A DNA stretch of 64,000 nucleotides from Christensenella intestinihominis (GTDB taxonomy: Bacteria; Bacillota; Clostridia; Christensenellales; Christensenellaceae): NCBI RefSeq assembly GCF_001678845.1, contig NZ_MAIQ01000003.1, positions 1 through 64,000 of the forward strand. The letters run 5' to 3'. The first letter of the stretch is position 1. Each line of letters starts with the position of its first letter. Both the position numbers and the translations under genes were made by a program. The notes under the pieces were generated by a model. It did not search any database, had not been told where the DNA came from, and was given only the letters and a program-made list of their open reading frames with translations. This document shows positions 18,225 to 41,472 of this stretch, piece by piece.

Positions 18225-19688
18225 CTATTCCTTTTTTTCGGGCTCTGCTCCCGCAGGCGCATCCCCTGCCTTGGGCGCTTCCGGCACTGCTTCCGGCTTA
18301 GCCGCTTCAAGCTTGGGCGCTTCCTTCGGGCTGATTTTTTTGCCGAGGAACTCAGGAAGCTCCATCCCCGCCATCTCAAAAATTTCATTCATAGGCGGAA
18401 TGCTCTTCATAAGCCCGGAAAGGAAGTTGGCTGTGGACGATTTCCCGTCTTTTCCTTCGCCGCTGTCCCATACGGTAACCTTGTCGATCTTAAGGTCGCG
18501 GATTGCTTCCACCTGTACCTTCATCAGGTCTTCCATCTTATCTGCAAGCATCAGCATCAGCGCATCCTTGGCGCTTCCGCCTGCCGCGTTTACGATGTCC
18601 GCAAAACCGGCGGCCTGCTTTTTCAGAATTTCCTGCGTACCGCGCGCTTCCGCCTCCATTTTCGCATAGATGGCGTCCGCTTCACCAGCGGCCTGCCTGC
18701 GCAGGCGTTCCGCCTCCGCCTCGGCGGCAAGCTCGATCTGGCGCTTCTGGATTTCCGCCTTAACGATAACATCCGCTTCGAGCGTCGCTTTCTCGCGTGA
18801 CGACCTTGCAAGCTCCGCCGCTTTTTCCGCCGCATACGCTTCTTCAAGGGCCTTTGCGGATTGCACTTTTTCCGCCGCGGTTGCGAGCCTCATGGCCTCC
18901 GCTTCCTTTTCACGCCGCGCGGCGTCCGACTGAGCAATTTCAATCTTCGCCGTGTTTTCACCCGTGATCGCCTTGGAGTTCGCGGTCGCCACCTCTACGC
19001 GCTGGTCGCGCTGTGCGTTCGCCTCGCCGATGGAGCCGTCGCGTACCTTTTCGGCAACCGACTTCTTCGCGTCGTTGATGGCCTTCGCGGCCGCTTCTTT
19101 ACCAAGCGCCGTGATGTAACCCGATTCGTCGCTGATATCCGTCACGTTCACGTTGATGAGCCGTAGGCCGATCTTCTTGAGCTCGGATTCCACGTTGCGC
19201 GAAACCGCCTCGAGGAATTTATCCCTGTCCGTGTTGATCTCCTCGATATCCATCGTGGCGATCACCAGACGCAGCTGTCCGAAAATAATATCCTTGGCAA
19301 GCTCCTGCACCTCTGCCATCTGGAGCCCCAACAGACGTTCCGCCGCGTTCTGCATCACACCCTGCTCCGTCGAAATGCCGACCGTAAAAATGGAAGGCAC
19401 GTCGATGCGGATATTCTGGCGCGAAAGCGCGCTCTTGAGGTCCACCTGGATGGAAAGCGGCGTAAGGTCAAGGTACTGGTACGCCTGGATCACCGGCCAC
19501 ACGAAGGCCGCGCCACCGTGGATGCACTTTGACGTACGGTTCGTCCCGTCCGTGTTCTGCCCCACCTTACCATAGATGACCATGATCTTGTCCGACGGAC
19601 ATTTCTTATATCTCGTCAGGAAGATCAGCAGGCACATGAACACCAATACAACGATTACGACTATCAGGATTAATGATTCAATACTCAT
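18225..19688 (-). CDS. floT: Flotillin-like membrane scaffold protein
   Basis: 487 residues. One N-terminal membrane segment (about 4-25), an SPFH/band-7 domain (about 28-200; KIMVIYGK, GGAAFVWPVIQAYQYLDLTP, LRLINVNVTDISDESGYI), then the long Ala/Glu/Lys coiled-coil typical of flotillins (about 200-390; QRDQRVEVATANSKA, AEAEAERLRRQAAGEADA). A Pro/Ala/Glu tail (about 455-487) ends the protein. Flotillins form membrane microdomains that organise signalling and secretion. The gene sits 101 bp downstream of an NfeD-family gene, the same pairing as yuaF-yuaG in Bacillus. Confidence 0.93.
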   Translation of the reverse strand: MSIESLILIVVIVVLVFMCLLIFLTRYKKCPSDKIMVIYGKVGQNTDGTNRTSKCIHGGAAFVWPVIQAYQYLDLTPLSIQVDLKSALSRQNIRIDVPSIFTVGISTEQGVMQNAAERLLGLQMAEVQELAKDIIFGQLRLVIATMDIEEINTDRDKFLEAVSRNVESELKKIGLRLINVNVTDISDESGYITALGKEAAAKAINDAKKSVAEKVRDGSIGEANAQRDQRVEVATANSKAITGENTAKIEIAQSDAARREKEAEAMRLATAAEKVQSAKALEEAYAAEKAAELARSSREKATLEADVIVKAEIQKRQIELAAEAEAERLRRQAAGEADAIYAKMEAEARGTQEILKKQAAGFADIVNAAGGSAKDALMLMLADKMEDLMKVQVEAIRDLKIDKVTVWDSGEGKDGKSSTANFLSGLMKSIPPMNEIFEMAGMELPEFLGKKISPKEAPKLEAAKPEAVPEAPKAGDAPAGAEPEKKE

Positions 19689-19789: not shown

Positions 19790-20563
19790 TTATTTTTTGG
19801 CCACGATCAGCGTGTTTCCATTGGATATTCCCACAACCGTCACTTCCGCGCCGGTCGGGATGGCCTGATCCCCGTCTGTGACCGCATCCAGCTCCACCAG
19901 CCTGTCCTGCACCATAATGGACACCTTTCCTGCCGCGCTCCGCTTTTCATGGATAGGCAGGTACACCGTACCCGACTTTCCAAGCGCGTTGCGGATATCA
20001 AGCGTCCCGTCGGACTGGAGCCGCATCATCGCGCGCATTGCGATGGCAATCAACACCATGGCAATGATACCGAAGACAATCGCCAGGATCACGCTCGCCA
20101 CAGGCACTACGTCGGACTTGAGCATCAGCAGCCCCGACCAGCCGAATACCGCGAAAAACGCCACCAGGCCCTGCAATGTAAACAGGTGCAGCCCGCTTTC
20201 GCCAAAGTGCGTATGGCCTTGGCCGTCCATCGAATCGACACTGTCCGCCATTCCGCCATGGATATCCGTGCCGGACGAAATGTCTACATCCGATATTCCA
20301 TCCGCCGTGATGTCGCCAATATGTATGTCCATATCCTGCGGCATGTCGGCATCTCCCGGCGCGTCAAGGTCAAAATGCGCATCCCCGGGGGAATCAAAAT
20401 GTACGTCCCCGGAGGCGTCCGCACCGCCCACATCCGCGTCGCCGCCATGTCCTGCGCCAATCAGCAGCAGGATGACCTCGATCACAAGCAGTACCGTTGA
20501 TGCAATGCCGACCACCGCGAAAATTTGTTCAATCAGCGTCATGGCCTCCCACCAAGCCAACAT
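19790..20563 (-). CDS. NfeD-family membrane protein with Asp/His-rich loop
   Basis: 257 residues; the ATG at 20563 has a GGAGG site nine bases upstream. One membrane segment (about 12-36), then an unusual 80-residue stretch (about 37-120) very rich in Asp, Gly and His (for example GHGGDADVGGADASGDVHFD), then two or three membrane helices (about 125-180). The C-terminal OB-fold typical of NfeD follows (about 190-257; LGKSGTVYLP, GAEVTVVGISNGNTLIV). NfeD proteins work next to flotillins, and this pair is transcribed together. The acidic loop should face outward and might bind divalent metal; that is inference from composition. Confidence 0.85.
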   Translation of the reverse strand: MLAWWEAMTLIEQIFAVVGIASTVLLVIEVILLLIGAGHGGDADVGGADASGDVHFDSPGDAHFDLDAPGDADMPQDMDIHIGDITADGISDVDISSGTDIHGGMADSVDSMDGQGHTHFGESGLHLFTLQGLVAFFAVFGWSGLLMLKSDVVPVASVILAIVFGIIAMVLIAIAMRAMMRLQSDGTLDIRNALGKSGTVYLPIHEKRSAAGKVSIMVQDRLVELDAVTDGDQAIPTGAEVTVVGISNGNTLIVAKK

Positions 20564-20586
20564 AATATGTTACCTCCTTCCTTCGT

Positions 20587-21030
20587 CGAAACACGCCCTT
20601 TTGCTCGCTTTTTCCCTTCGGTCAAACGTCTCGATTACAGGCGGTTTCTCCTCTTCCCCACAAAACTCATTGCGCTTCGCGCCATTCGAGTTTCGCGGGG
20701 GCCCCGTCTTATAAGCGTTCGCCTTGCTTGCTTTCTTAGGGCGAAACATGCCCTTTTGCTCGCTTTTCCCTTCGGTCAAACGTCTCGCTTACAGGCGGTT
20801 TCTCCTCTTCCCCACAAAACTCATTGCGCTTCGCGCCATTCGAGTTTCGCGGGGGCCCCGCCTTATAAACGTTCGCCTTGCTTGCTTTCTTAGGGCGAAA
20901 CACGCCCTTTTGCTCGCTTTTTCCCTTCGGTCAAACGTCTCGCTTACAGGCGGTTTCTCCTCTTCCCCACAAAACTCATTGCGCTTCGCGCCATTCGAGT
21001 TTCGCGGGGGCCCCGCCTTATAAGTGTTCT
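20587..21030. repeat. Three-copy 154-bp tandem repeat
   Basis: Copies at 20587-20741, 20742-20895 and 20896-21030 (the last truncated) are nearly identical, differing by single bases and one T. Each copy carries, as minus-strand RNA, a 12-bp stem CCCGCGAAACUC / GAGUUUUGUGGG with two G-U wobbles, closed over a GCGC-GAA-GCGC hairpin. The plus-strand version would have A-C mismatches. Both internal boundaries also form a hairpin (AGGGCG/CGCCCT type, with a wobble at the first). The array lies between the DUF1836 gene and nfeD. Open frames through it exist on both strands but have no ribosome sites. It is probably an intergenic structured repeat, function unknown. Confidence 0.8.
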
Positions 21031-21163: not shown

Positions 21164-21700
21164 TCATTCCAGCGCGCCCAGAAGCTGGTTCGCTTCCGCT
21201 TTGATTTCGGCGGATAAATGTGTGAGCAGCATAATTTTCAGCACCTTTTTGAGCCGGTCTCCCGCCTCGAGGCCGCCCGGTATTTTTTCGTCGACCACCT
21301 TCCCGATAATATCGTCAATTCCCGTCGCTTCACGAATCGCATCTCCCGGGACCTGCCGCAGCAGGTCGACAAAGCAGGTATAAATCAGCGTCGGAGCTCC
21401 CTTTCCGCACAGGGTTTCCACATAGCGGATCATCTGTGTTACCTGATCGATCTGGAAGATATCATTCATCATGTTAATCATCACAATGGTGCAAAACTGG
21501 TCGCAGTCATATTTCTTATTCACAGGCGGGGACACAAATTTCCGTTTAACCCAATTTTGGATCGTATGCGCCGATAGTCCCGTAAGCTGCAATACCTGCG
21601 AAAGCACCAGCCCGTTTGCCGCAAACAGGGAATTCAGGAAATCCTGTATGCCGTGGTCAATATTCATCTCAACCGTCGTGCCCGGTAAAAACCGTATCAT
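21164..21700 (-). CDS. DUF1836-family (MerR-like helix-turn-helix) protein
   Basis: 178 residues. The DUF1836 pattern is clear: a short N-terminal segment, then LSQVLQLTGLSAHTIQNWVKRKFVSPP (helix-turn-helix with the conserved Trp, MerR-like), KKYDCDQFCTIVMINMM, and a helical C-terminus. Members are found in low-G+C Gram-positives and are presumed DNA-binding regulators; targets are unknown. GGAGG lies 11 bases before the ATG. A long leader (about 185 nt) separates the start from a consensus promoter whose spacer holds a palindrome, so self-regulation is likely. Confidence 0.8.
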   Translation of the reverse strand: MIRFLPGTTVEMNIDHGIQDFLNSLFAANGLVLSQVLQLTGLSAHTIQNWVKRKFVSPPVNKKYDCDQFCTIVMINMMNDIFQIDQVTQMIRYVETLCGKGAPTLIYTCFVDLLRQVPGDAIREATGIDDIIGKVVDEKIPGGLEAGDRLKKVLKIMLLTHLSAEIKAEANQLLGALE

Positions 21701-21890
21701 TGGCTATCAGTCCTCCTTTTCCAGGGCCGGCCCTTTCCGCAAACCGGCAGGGCACCCTGTTGGACAGCTCCAACCCGTATCAGTCCGGTACGCCTTCCCC
21801 ATGCCATGCCTTCGGGCGCCCGCGTGTTGTTTCCCGCGGCACGCCTTCTCCCGGACTACGCAGGTCTTTCTCCGTTCCTTTTATGTCCAC

Positions 21891-21919
21891 ATTATAGCAC
21901 GTAGTCATATGACTGTCAA
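21891..21919 (-). promoter_or_regulatory. Consensus promoter with palindrome in spacer (DUF1836 gene)
   Basis: Minus strand: TTGACA (21914-21919), 17-bp spacer, TATAAT (21891-21896), both perfect consensus. The 12-base palindrome AGTCATATGACT (21903-21914) fills the -35 edge and the spacer, where a repressor or MerR-type protein would act. The 302-bp gap between genes (21701-22002) otherwise holds the leader of this transcript and the terminator at 21961-21992. A 36-codon frame inside the leader has no ribosome site. Confidence 0.7.
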
Positions 21920-21960
21920 ATAATTTCGCATGACTTTTCAGAAATATTTTTAACCAGATC

Positions 21961-21992
21961 AAAAAAGCTGCTTCCGTCTTTTGGAAACAGCT
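21961..21992 (-). terminator. Terminator of the hydroxyacid dehydrogenase gene
   Basis: On the minus strand GCTGTTTCC pairs with GGAAGCAGC (one G-U) around a 7-nt loop, followed by TTTTTT. It lies 10 bp past the stop codon. Confidence 0.8.
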
Positions 21993-22002
21993 TTCCTTTC
22001 GT

Positions 22003-22947
22003 CTATTGAATGACATTTTGCGGCGTTCCCGCCAGCCACTTTTCCACATTACCGAGGACAATCGCCGCCCGTTTATAAAGCGCCTCTCCTGTCGCAAACC
22101 CCACATGCGGGGCAAGCACCGTACGCGGCGCATGCAAAAGAGGCTCGTCTCCCGCAAGCGGCGGCTCCGAGTCAAATACGTCGATCGCCGCCCCGCCAAG
22201 CTTCCCTTCGCCCAGCGCCCGGGCAAGCGCCGCATTATCCACCAGCGGCCCGCGGGCCGTGTTGATAAGCACCGCGCCGCGCTTCATCATCGCAAGCTCC
22301 CTTTCCCCGATCATATTCCGTGTCTCGCCGGTAAGCGGCGCATGCAGGGAAATAATATCGCAGGTCGAAAGCAGCTCGGGAAGCCCCACATACCGCACGC
22401 CCGGCACGTCCTTTTCCGTGCGGCTGTACGCGAGCACCTTGCAGCCAAACGCCCCGGCAATCCGCGCCACCCGCAGGCCGATCGCGCCCGTGCCGACCAC
22501 GCCAAAGGTCTTTCCTTCAAGTTCGCTTCCAACAAGGCCGTCCCGCGTCTTGCCCGCACGCACCGCCCCGTCGCATTCGATGAGCTTCCGCTCCAGCGAA
22601 ACCAGCATACCGAACACAAGGTCTGCAACCGCGGCCGTCGAATAACCCGCGCTGTTGCACACGGTGACCCCATTTCTACGGCAGGCGTCAAGCGCGATGT
22701 GGTCGACGCCTGTAAACGCCACGGTAAGCAGCTTCAAATTCTTGCATCCGTCGATCACCTCCGCCGGGAGCGGCAGGTTTGAAACCGCAATCACCTCCGC
22801 GTCCCCTCCGCGGCGTATGAGTTCCCCCGTGTCTGCCGTGCGCGTATCATAAAGCACAATTTCAGCGTCCCCCGGCAATGCCCTTTCCGCCATTTTCCGC
22901 AGCGTTCCTTCCCCGACCCCAAGTGGTTCTATCGCAACAAATTTCAT
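22003..22947 (-). CDS. D-2-hydroxyacid dehydrogenase (NAD-dependent)
   Basis: 314 residues from ATG 22947 (GGAGG eight bases upstream; an earlier in-frame ATG lacks a site). Standard two-domain fold. The nucleotide-binding loop VVGTGAIGLRVARIAGAFG is intact. Catalytic residues: Arg in INTARGPLVD, Glu in FDSEPPL and His in LAPHVGFAT. The substrate side (TVAFTGVDHI) matches glycerate/phosphoglycerate-like dehydrogenases. It reduces a 2-keto acid to a D-2-hydroxy acid or the reverse. No serine-biosynthesis partner lies nearby and no ACT domain is present, so it is probably not SerA. Confidence 0.88.
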   Translation of the reverse strand: MKFVAIEPLGVGEGTLRKMAERALPGDAEIVLYDTRTADTGELIRRGGDAEVIAVSNLPLPAEVIDGCKNLKLLTVAFTGVDHIALDACRRNGVTVCNSAGYSTAAVADLVFGMLVSLERKLIECDGAVRAGKTRDGLVGSELEGKTFGVVGTGAIGLRVARIAGAFGCKVLAYSRTEKDVPGVRYVGLPELLSTCDIISLHAPLTGETRNMIGERELAMMKRGAVLINTARGPLVDNAALARALGEGKLGGAAIDVFDSEPPLAGDEPLLHAPRTVLAPHVGFATGEALYKRAAIVLGNVEKWLAGTPQNVIQ

Positions 22948-40725: not shown

Positions 40726-41472
40726 TTATGAATTCGCCGCTTTTTTTGCAGCAGTTTTGGTTGCGGCTGCGCTCTTTTTTGCAGCAGTTTTAGTAGCTGT
40801 AGCGCTCTTCCTTGCTGCCGTTTTGGTCGCTGCGCCCGTTTTTTTCGCCGCGGTTTTCGCAGCAGTTCCCGTCTTTTTGGCGGCTGTTTTGGCTTCCGTT
40901 CCGGTTTTCCTTACGGCCGTCTTGGTTGTCGTGCCCGTTTTTTTCGCTGCGGTTTTCGCAGCCGTTCCGGTTTTCTTTGCGGTGGTCTTGGTCCCCGTTC
41001 CGGTTTTCTTCACGGCCGCTTTTGCAGAGGACGCCGTTTTCCTGGCGGCTGTTTTGGTGGCGCTGCCCGCCTTTTTCGCCGCGGTTCCCGTTTCTTCCGC
41101 CTTTTCCTTGGCGGTGTCCATCCTGTCCGCCGCCTCGTCGTCCGCTTCGGCTTTCACCCGTTCAATTTCTTCGTCGATCTTTTTCAGTTCCGCTCCGTTG
41201 TTTTTGATGCGGTCTCCATGCTCTGCGAGGTCTTTTTTCAAATTTCCGGATTCATAGGTCGCTTTTCCAATTGCGCGGTAACTCTCGTCAATCTCACCGG
41301 AGAGCTTTGCTTTCTGCGCATTCAGCTTTGCTACGTCCATCATTTCCTTCGACCGCGTTGCAACGGTCCCCCCGAATGCCACGATGCTGTCCTTTGCCTT
41401 GCTCAAAACATCGCCGATCTTTTCCCCCGCGCTTTGCAGCGTGGATTTTGTACTGTCCTTTTTTGCCTGTGC
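40726..41472 (-). CDS. Lys/Ala/Thr-rich protein with histone H1-like tail
   Basis: 248 residues from ATG 41472 (GGAGG seven bases upstream). Residues 1-110 form a mixed charged, mostly helical part (GEKIGDVLSKAKDSIVAFGG, ELKKIDEEIERVKAEADDEA). Residues 120-248 are a low-complexity tail of six- to eight-residue repeats such as KKTGTAAKTAAKKTG, with Lys every third or fourth position, no acidic residues and almost no hydrophobics. This is the composition of histone H1 tails and bacterial HC1/AlgP-like DNA-compacting proteins. The N-terminal half resembles a small coiled-coil domain. Probably binds DNA or RNA; function inferred. Confidence 0.75.
   Translation of the reverse strand, partial: AQAKKDSTKSTLQSAGEKIGDVLSKAKDSIVAFGGTVATRSKEMMDVAKLNAQKAKLSGEIDESYRAIGKATYESGNLKKDLAEHGDRIKNNGAELKKIDEEIERVKAEADDEAADRMDTAKEKAEETGTAAKKAGSATKTAARKTASSAKAAVKKTGTGTKTTAKKTGTAAKTAAKKTGTTTKTAVRKTGTEAKTAAKKTGTAAKTAAKKTGAATKTAARKSATATKTAAKKSAAATKTAAKKAANS

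Follow-up and report, generated by a model that had tools for sequence, protein, structure and literature searches.

Within the 64,000-nucleotide stretch of Christensenella intestinihominis DNA analysed here (the window), a tandem array separates a DUF1836 gene from an NfeD-like gene, which is followed by a flotillin gene; all three genes are on the minus strand (Table 1). The array therefore lies upstream of the NfeD/flotillin genes and on their strand, as a preliminary description of the locus had placed it. That description also counted three near-identical units of 154 bp, and the repeat searches agree: TRF reports 2.9 copies with a period of 154 and 96% matches, a repeat finder gives unit-to-unit spacings of 154 and 155, and a 34-nt core occurs three times in the window against 0 occurrences expected by chance. 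Elsewhere in the window, 33-nt tandem repeats at 40738-41086 are probably an Ala/Lys-rich histone-like coding repeat.

Folding of the array units differs between the strands. The three units reach -55.1, -57.4 and -48.3 kcal/mol on the minus strand (z scores of -3.3, -4.8 and -2.35), versus -36.5, -44.6 and -32.0 kcal/mol on the plus strand. The stem CCCCGCGAAACTC/GAGTTTTGTGGGG encloses GCGC-GAA-GCGC and contains two G-U pairs in the minus strand that become C-A in the plus strand, and a hairpin GGGCG..CGCCC is present at the unit border. The better fold as minus-strand RNA, the strand-specific G-U pairs and the border hairpins had all been noticed in the preliminary description, and all of them hold up.

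Every unit of the array carries one copy of E, the name used here for a dispersed element that is about 115 nt long and runs from GGGG to GACG. The order on the RNA strand is GGGG, hairpin 1, AGAGGAG, helix 2, an inner hairpin and the unpaired GACG. Hairpin 1 consists of 13 pairs (CCCCGCG..CGYGGGG), with a conserved inner part and an outer stem that is freely variable in some copies, while helix 2 has 5 + 3 pairs and holds the inner hairpin. The loop of E is long and variable, and the terminal GACG is nearly invariant and unpaired in alignment A3.

The fold is supported by covariation. In the 12 training sequences, five pairs of hairpin 1 have changed on both sides, and the covariation is 0.341 versus 0.137 (0 of 500 shuffles). 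Helix 2 and the inner hairpin were left unconstrained by the search pattern that gathered 59 copies; in these copies 86.4% of the cells are paired, 214 cells have changed on both sides versus 67 in shuffles, and covariation reaches 0.665 versus 0.243 in shuffles (0 of 500). Compensatory changes, whose absence the preliminary description had held to count against it, are thus present in both parts of E. Moreover, the stem cells contain 101 G-U versus 18 A-C combinations (27 versus 18, alone not significant, once the two most G-U-rich pairs are removed), and this excess on the window's minus strand marks the minus strand as the one that folds. One strand of E folds, as RNA or as single-stranded DNA. 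Searches with the window copy and four E-bearing loci gave no match to E among the Rfam 15 covariance models. Beside E copies, or within them, there is a second module (GGAATnCC..GCGATTGG..AAAGCGAAGGTATGC..), which is likewise dispersed and structured, as if E were modular.

Table 1. Array, copies of E and flanking genes in the window, followed by sites of the second module, each with its locus.
Feature	Coordinates	Strand	Basis
DUF1836 gene, upstream of array	21164..21700	-	PF08876
Tandem array, 154-155-bp units	20587..21029	-	TRF and repeat finder
E copy 1, 5'-most on RNA strand, hairpin 1 and GAGGAG linker	20957..21014	-	R1, 64.9 bits
E copy 2, hairpin 1 and GAGGAG linker; without CGACG, continues into unit linker	20802..20859	-	R1, 64.9 bits
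E copy 3, complete (hairpin 1 to terminal CGACG), nearest nfeD	20584..20705	-	R1 match 20648-20705, extended to CGACG; row in alignment A3
Helix 2 3' arm, GGGCGTGTTTCG on RNA strand	20587..20598	-	covarying helix 2 of A3; sequence
Unpaired terminal GACG (plus strand CGTC), about 20 nt ahead of nfeD start codon	20584..20587	-	sequence; conserved in A3
NfeD-like gene, downstream of array	19790..20563	-	weak PF01957, 19.6 bits, below Pfam cut-off of 29.1
Flotillin-like gene	18225..19688	-	PF01145 above cut-off; NF058507 below cut-off
Second module, L092	2201-2248	-	
Second module, L093	upstream of 2053		
Second module, L103	upstream of 2026		
Second module, L107	2047-2105	-	
Second module, L114	2018-2071	-	

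How widely is E distributed? With the array unit as a blastn query, the own genome yields 22 matches at an E-value of <=1, 19 of them beyond the window and many confined to the hairpin. A covariance model (R1) that covers hairpin 1 and GAGGAG and was trained on 12 own-genome sequences returns 40 rows at <=1e-5; because one place matches on both strands, these represent at least 39 places, a lower bound obtained with 150 of 1220 first-look candidates scored. The unit is thus represented by copies dispersed through the genome. A processed small RNA cluster, one of the readings offered in the preliminary description, would suit three near-identical folded units, but it is scarcely credible given that E is single-copy at most loci and that a single weak promoter-like match lies at the nfeD end of the array.

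At an E-value of <=0.1, R1 rows are found in all six genomes of the genus (48, 5, 28, 12, 10 and 8). At <=1e-5 the model matches 26 of 200 genomes of the order, six of the 26 belonging to the genus, and for the full model (R2), at <=1e-6, there are matches in 7 of the 398 genomes from the phylum. A pattern scan of named genomes found at least 114 stretches that carry the E pattern, from which at least 105 distinct copies were read. The 80 stretches listed are mostly from Oscillospiraceae (Pseudoflavonifractor, Oscillibacter, Flavonifractor, Intestinimonas, Dysosmobacter), and Christensenella and a single Erysipelotrichaceae record are represented as well. All ten named genomes that were picked as carriers hold 3 to 30 matches each. 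The pattern also occurs on six IMG/VR contigs, and on one of them (L289, compared beside L291) E has lost its second half; the phage collection gave two weak, partly covered matches, and plasmids gave none at <=1e-3. Multiple copies cluster head to tail, both in the own genome and in G002. The ftsH leaders of two Christensenella species (L105, L124) carry tandem E arrays with units of about 290 and 184 bp. No description of this family was found in those parts of the literature that were consulted; the supplements of PMC8040213 could hold one.

The gap between DUF1836 and nfeD differs markedly among the genomes of the genus. It holds three units in the own genome and one diverged copy in G003, while G001, G004 and G005 have no E there and the two genes are nearly adjacent; G002 gave no nfeD match. 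A site with no copy in three sister genomes, one copy in another and three copies here implies gain or loss together with tandem expansion. The same comparison bears on the proposal that the array is a cis-regulatory RNA leader, in three copies, dedicated to the nfeD-flotillin genes. The array does fold well on the strand of these genes and ends about 20 nt before the start codon. However, such a leader is very unlikely, since three of the five genus genomes with nfeD have no E upstream of it, most copies are elsewhere, and the same fold adjoins tRNAs, ftsH, infC, gyrA, parS and pgk. The alternative in the preliminary description that did stand is a mobile intergenic element, in keeping with the 39 places, the presence of E in all six genus genomes and in Oscillospiraceae, the empty and filled sites, and the target copies described below. 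In the nfeD operon, transcription of the array probably yields mRNA hairpins between the cistrons; an influence of these on nfeD-flotillin expression is unproven and would be secondary.

Two further sites are filled in one genome and lack E in those compared with it. In G004, a copy lies between a conserved TTGACA/TATAAT pair and the Shine-Dalgarno site of DUF1836, where G000, G001 and G005 have other sequence, and E would be expected to be transcribed at this place. In a prophage of G248, E exactly separates two genes that have an 11-nt overlap in five related phages lacking E, and the upstream gene now stops inside E. No target copy is retained at the G248 prophage site or at the window array, and searches of the phage collection for empty sites, with the flanks of L291, L292 and L295, provided no usable pair. 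Within the window, 21700-22100 of the minus strand is a different GC-rich leader of the own genome, between the conserved promoter-like site and DUF1836, with no match to E.

Target copies do occur at other loci. They are about 16-80 bp long, variable in length, and start at the precise 3' end of E. At 21 of the 91 loci, the post-GACG flank shares with the upstream flank a direct repeat above the 99% point of permuted pairs, a count in which L191 is an artefact (slice at a contig edge) and the end of L140 was wrongly chosen. A stricter rule, applied over the 91 loci plus 58 further copies, gives 20 distinct cases in 145 examined, each beginning no more than 8 nt from the GACG end. The host ORF ends near the end of the target copy in 17 of these 20 cases. 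Targets confirmed by Pfam are phosphoglycerate kinase, flagellin, sigma-70, ketol-acid reductoisomerase, an SMC/RecN-type protein and a phage tail protein. Several of the Oscillospiraceae loci derive from MAGs; the footprint is also present in two genomes with strain names, Pseudoflavonifractor phocaeensis An507 and Bacterium D16-76.

The 5' side of E is less regular. An inverted piece of the target lies directly 5' of hairpin 1, above control, in 16 of 91 loci (within 13 nt in 13 of the 16), and in L327 part of the inverted piece is native downstream sequence. A role of this piece as a crRNA-like guide was considered and rejected: it is found in a minority of loci, looks as if copied from the local target, and the break position is unlike that of a Cas9-like guide. 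A variable 5' side with an inverted target piece, together with the precise 3' end and the variable-length target copies, would also suit copying of E through RNA by target-primed reverse transcription, which would make E a bacterial analogue of SINEs. We consider this unlikely, as 6 of the 15 E-bearing genomes tested, including the own genome and those richest in copies, have no RVT_1 match, which leaves a link to reverse transcriptase unsupported in these six; such an enzyme may have been active there in the past.

Some target points recur. Four loci have E at the same point of the sigma factor gene and at least six at the same point of pgk (by eye), and each downstream copy resembles the gene end of its own genome (also by eye), which suggests repeated insertion. 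The differences between target copies are 37 synonymous versus 6 non-synonymous, or 37 versus 8 with L190 in the right frame; the two true differences in L190 are both non-synonymous. Mostly synonymous differences are unexpected for a simple dead duplicate, and possible sources of the excess are recombination with diverged alleles or reversible excision. Could E instead be a small site-specific cassette, or the att remnant of a genomic island, that restores gene 3' ends? Duplicated 3' ends with synonymous differences and sometimes different stop codons, and the use of one site in pgk and the sigma factor gene across several species, point in this direction. Nonetheless, we judge it quite improbable, because one E occurs at a large number of unrelated targets, among them gene starts, the 5' ends of tmRNA and parS, and no longer cassette was found (up to 8 kb).

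The 3' end of E repeatedly abuts boundaries of several kinds. Of the 32 element clusters in the own genome, 6 end 0 nt from the CCA end of a tRNA, in antisense orientation (2 of 11 in G002). At mnmE and a metallo-hydrolase gene, E stops at a distance of 2-3 nt from the stop codon, and at nfeD, infC, ftsH, a serA-like gene and gyrA it ends just ahead of the ribosome-binding site. Three Oscillospiraceae loci (L315 745, L332 617, L360 618) have a tmRNA whose 5' end follows E after 1-4 nt; these tmRNAs were found by Rfam and missed by ARAGORN. Five loci (L089 4878, L117 2529, L166, L193, L217) have, directly at the E end, the palindrome TGTTTCACGTGAAACA, which we take to be parS-like. By eye, about 15 of the 32 own-genome clusters are flush with such boundaries. 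Since the automatic nearest-gene table contains spurious antisense ORFs at the window, infC, ftsH and serA, its tRNA and convergent rows alone were used.

Most of the tRNA-adjacent copies (L088, L096, L102, L106, L108, L114, L118, L127) have a 5' box ACAAAATAGATGCAG, and when read in the direction of the tRNA these copies show a hairpin and T-run that may act as a tRNA terminator. Such positions fit the argument that E is a once-mobile family maintained today chiefly because of functions at the RNA level (insulation, mRNA stabilisation, termination), with a tRNA-linked subfamily that may serve as tRNA terminators. The exact antisense junctions with tRNA CCA ends, the hairpin and T-run in tRNA-sense sequences, the G-U preference, which suggests RNA, and the arrays at ftsH in two species all favor this argument. 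On the other hand, a simple consensus scan scored no terminator within E of L096, and low-divergence target copies show recent insertion elsewhere, so that we hold it as a tentative possibility.

E bears no gene, and no longer autonomous version was found within up to 8 kb upstream. Matches to Y1_Tnp occur in three of the six genus genomes, and no R1 match at an E-value of <=0.1 was found around seven Y1 loci. A link to RAYT/IS200 is accordingly unsupported, half of the genus genomes having no Y1_Tnp match and no E lying beside the Y1 loci.

E forms a dispersed family whose fold is conserved on one strand; its sites are found empty as well as filled, its 3' end is precise and its target copies vary. 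From these features E appears to behave like a non-autonomous mobile element of the REP/MITE type. The array is probably a tandem expansion of one copy of this strand-specifically folded element that settled between DUF1836 and nfeD. The mobility class of E is well supported, while the chemistry of its movement is a guess. E may insert as a folded single strand (RNA or single-stranded DNA), aided by enzymes encoded elsewhere. Its GACG end would be attached at one side of a staggered break, which would produce the target copy, and the 5' side would sometimes be filled in by fold-back copying of the target. The copies that survive would be those that leave neighboring genes, tRNAs, tmRNA or parS intact. 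It is conceivable, though we would not count on it, that E represents a new class of mobile element: an enzyme-less folded single strand (RNA or single-stranded DNA), with GACG joined precisely to a target break, variable target copies and a 5' side sealed by fold-back copying, which spreads across families and phages and returns to the same places in housekeeping genes.

Whatever its chemistry, this covarying element of about 115 nt is common to Christensenella, Oscillospiraceae and their phages and is absent from Rfam. Lying flush against tRNAs, tmRNA, parS and gene ends, E would shape the transcripts of abundant human gut bacteria, and it confuses both gene annotation and RNA annotation.

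Several known families of repeats invite comparison. MITEs such as the bcr1-like and RUP elements are non-autonomous and dispersed, with transcribed hairpins and target duplications. E is likewise non-autonomous, dispersed and associated with target duplications; unlike MITEs, its ends (GGGG..GACG) form no terminal inverted repeats, and its target duplications vary in length, from 16 nt upward. The streptococcal BOX elements, with their boxA-boxB-boxC sequences, are modular, structured and intergenic, a likeness of general description between repeats of unrelated host groups. Rickettsia palindromic elements, which include two types with a CGTC tag, can lie in genes. Unlike these, E is not kept in frame, as all three phases occur, and an in-frame protein insert was rejected (16 read by eye: f0 6, f2 6 and f1 4, with a stop carried by f1). 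E resembles the GTAG REPs associated with RAYT in being a short folded repeat with a tetranucleotide tag, but the tag is GACG/CGTC, the linker reads GGAG rather than GTAG, and there is no Y1 gene near E.

The closest comparison is with the CGTC-tagged REPs. In the consulted portions of a 2013 survey, these are described as repeats of 20-40 bp with one stem of 8-9 bp and a 4-5-nt loop, A-T pairs in the first two stem positions, a mostly head-to-head dimeric arrangement, no dedicated transposase and a location mostly near genes (Di Nocera et al. 2013, PMC3733652). Measured against that account, E is similarly dispersed and palindromic, with an unpaired CGTC at one end, a location mostly near genes and no associated transposase. 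E differs in its length of about 115 nt, its combination of a 13-pair hairpin 1 and a helix 2 with inner hairpin, the mostly G-C and variable first pairs of helix 2, and arrays that run head to tail instead of forming head-to-head dimers. Its Bacillota hosts are outside the five phyla named there for CGTC repeats. Given its size, stems and lack of head-to-head dimers, E is not filed as a CGTC-tagged REP on the description available to us; by analogy, it would work like a large CGTC-tagged REP/MITE. The mode of movement of CGTC-tagged repeats is left open in the same portions of the survey (PMC3733652). As a larger look-alike of the repeats described there, E makes that question testable through its target copies and empty sites.
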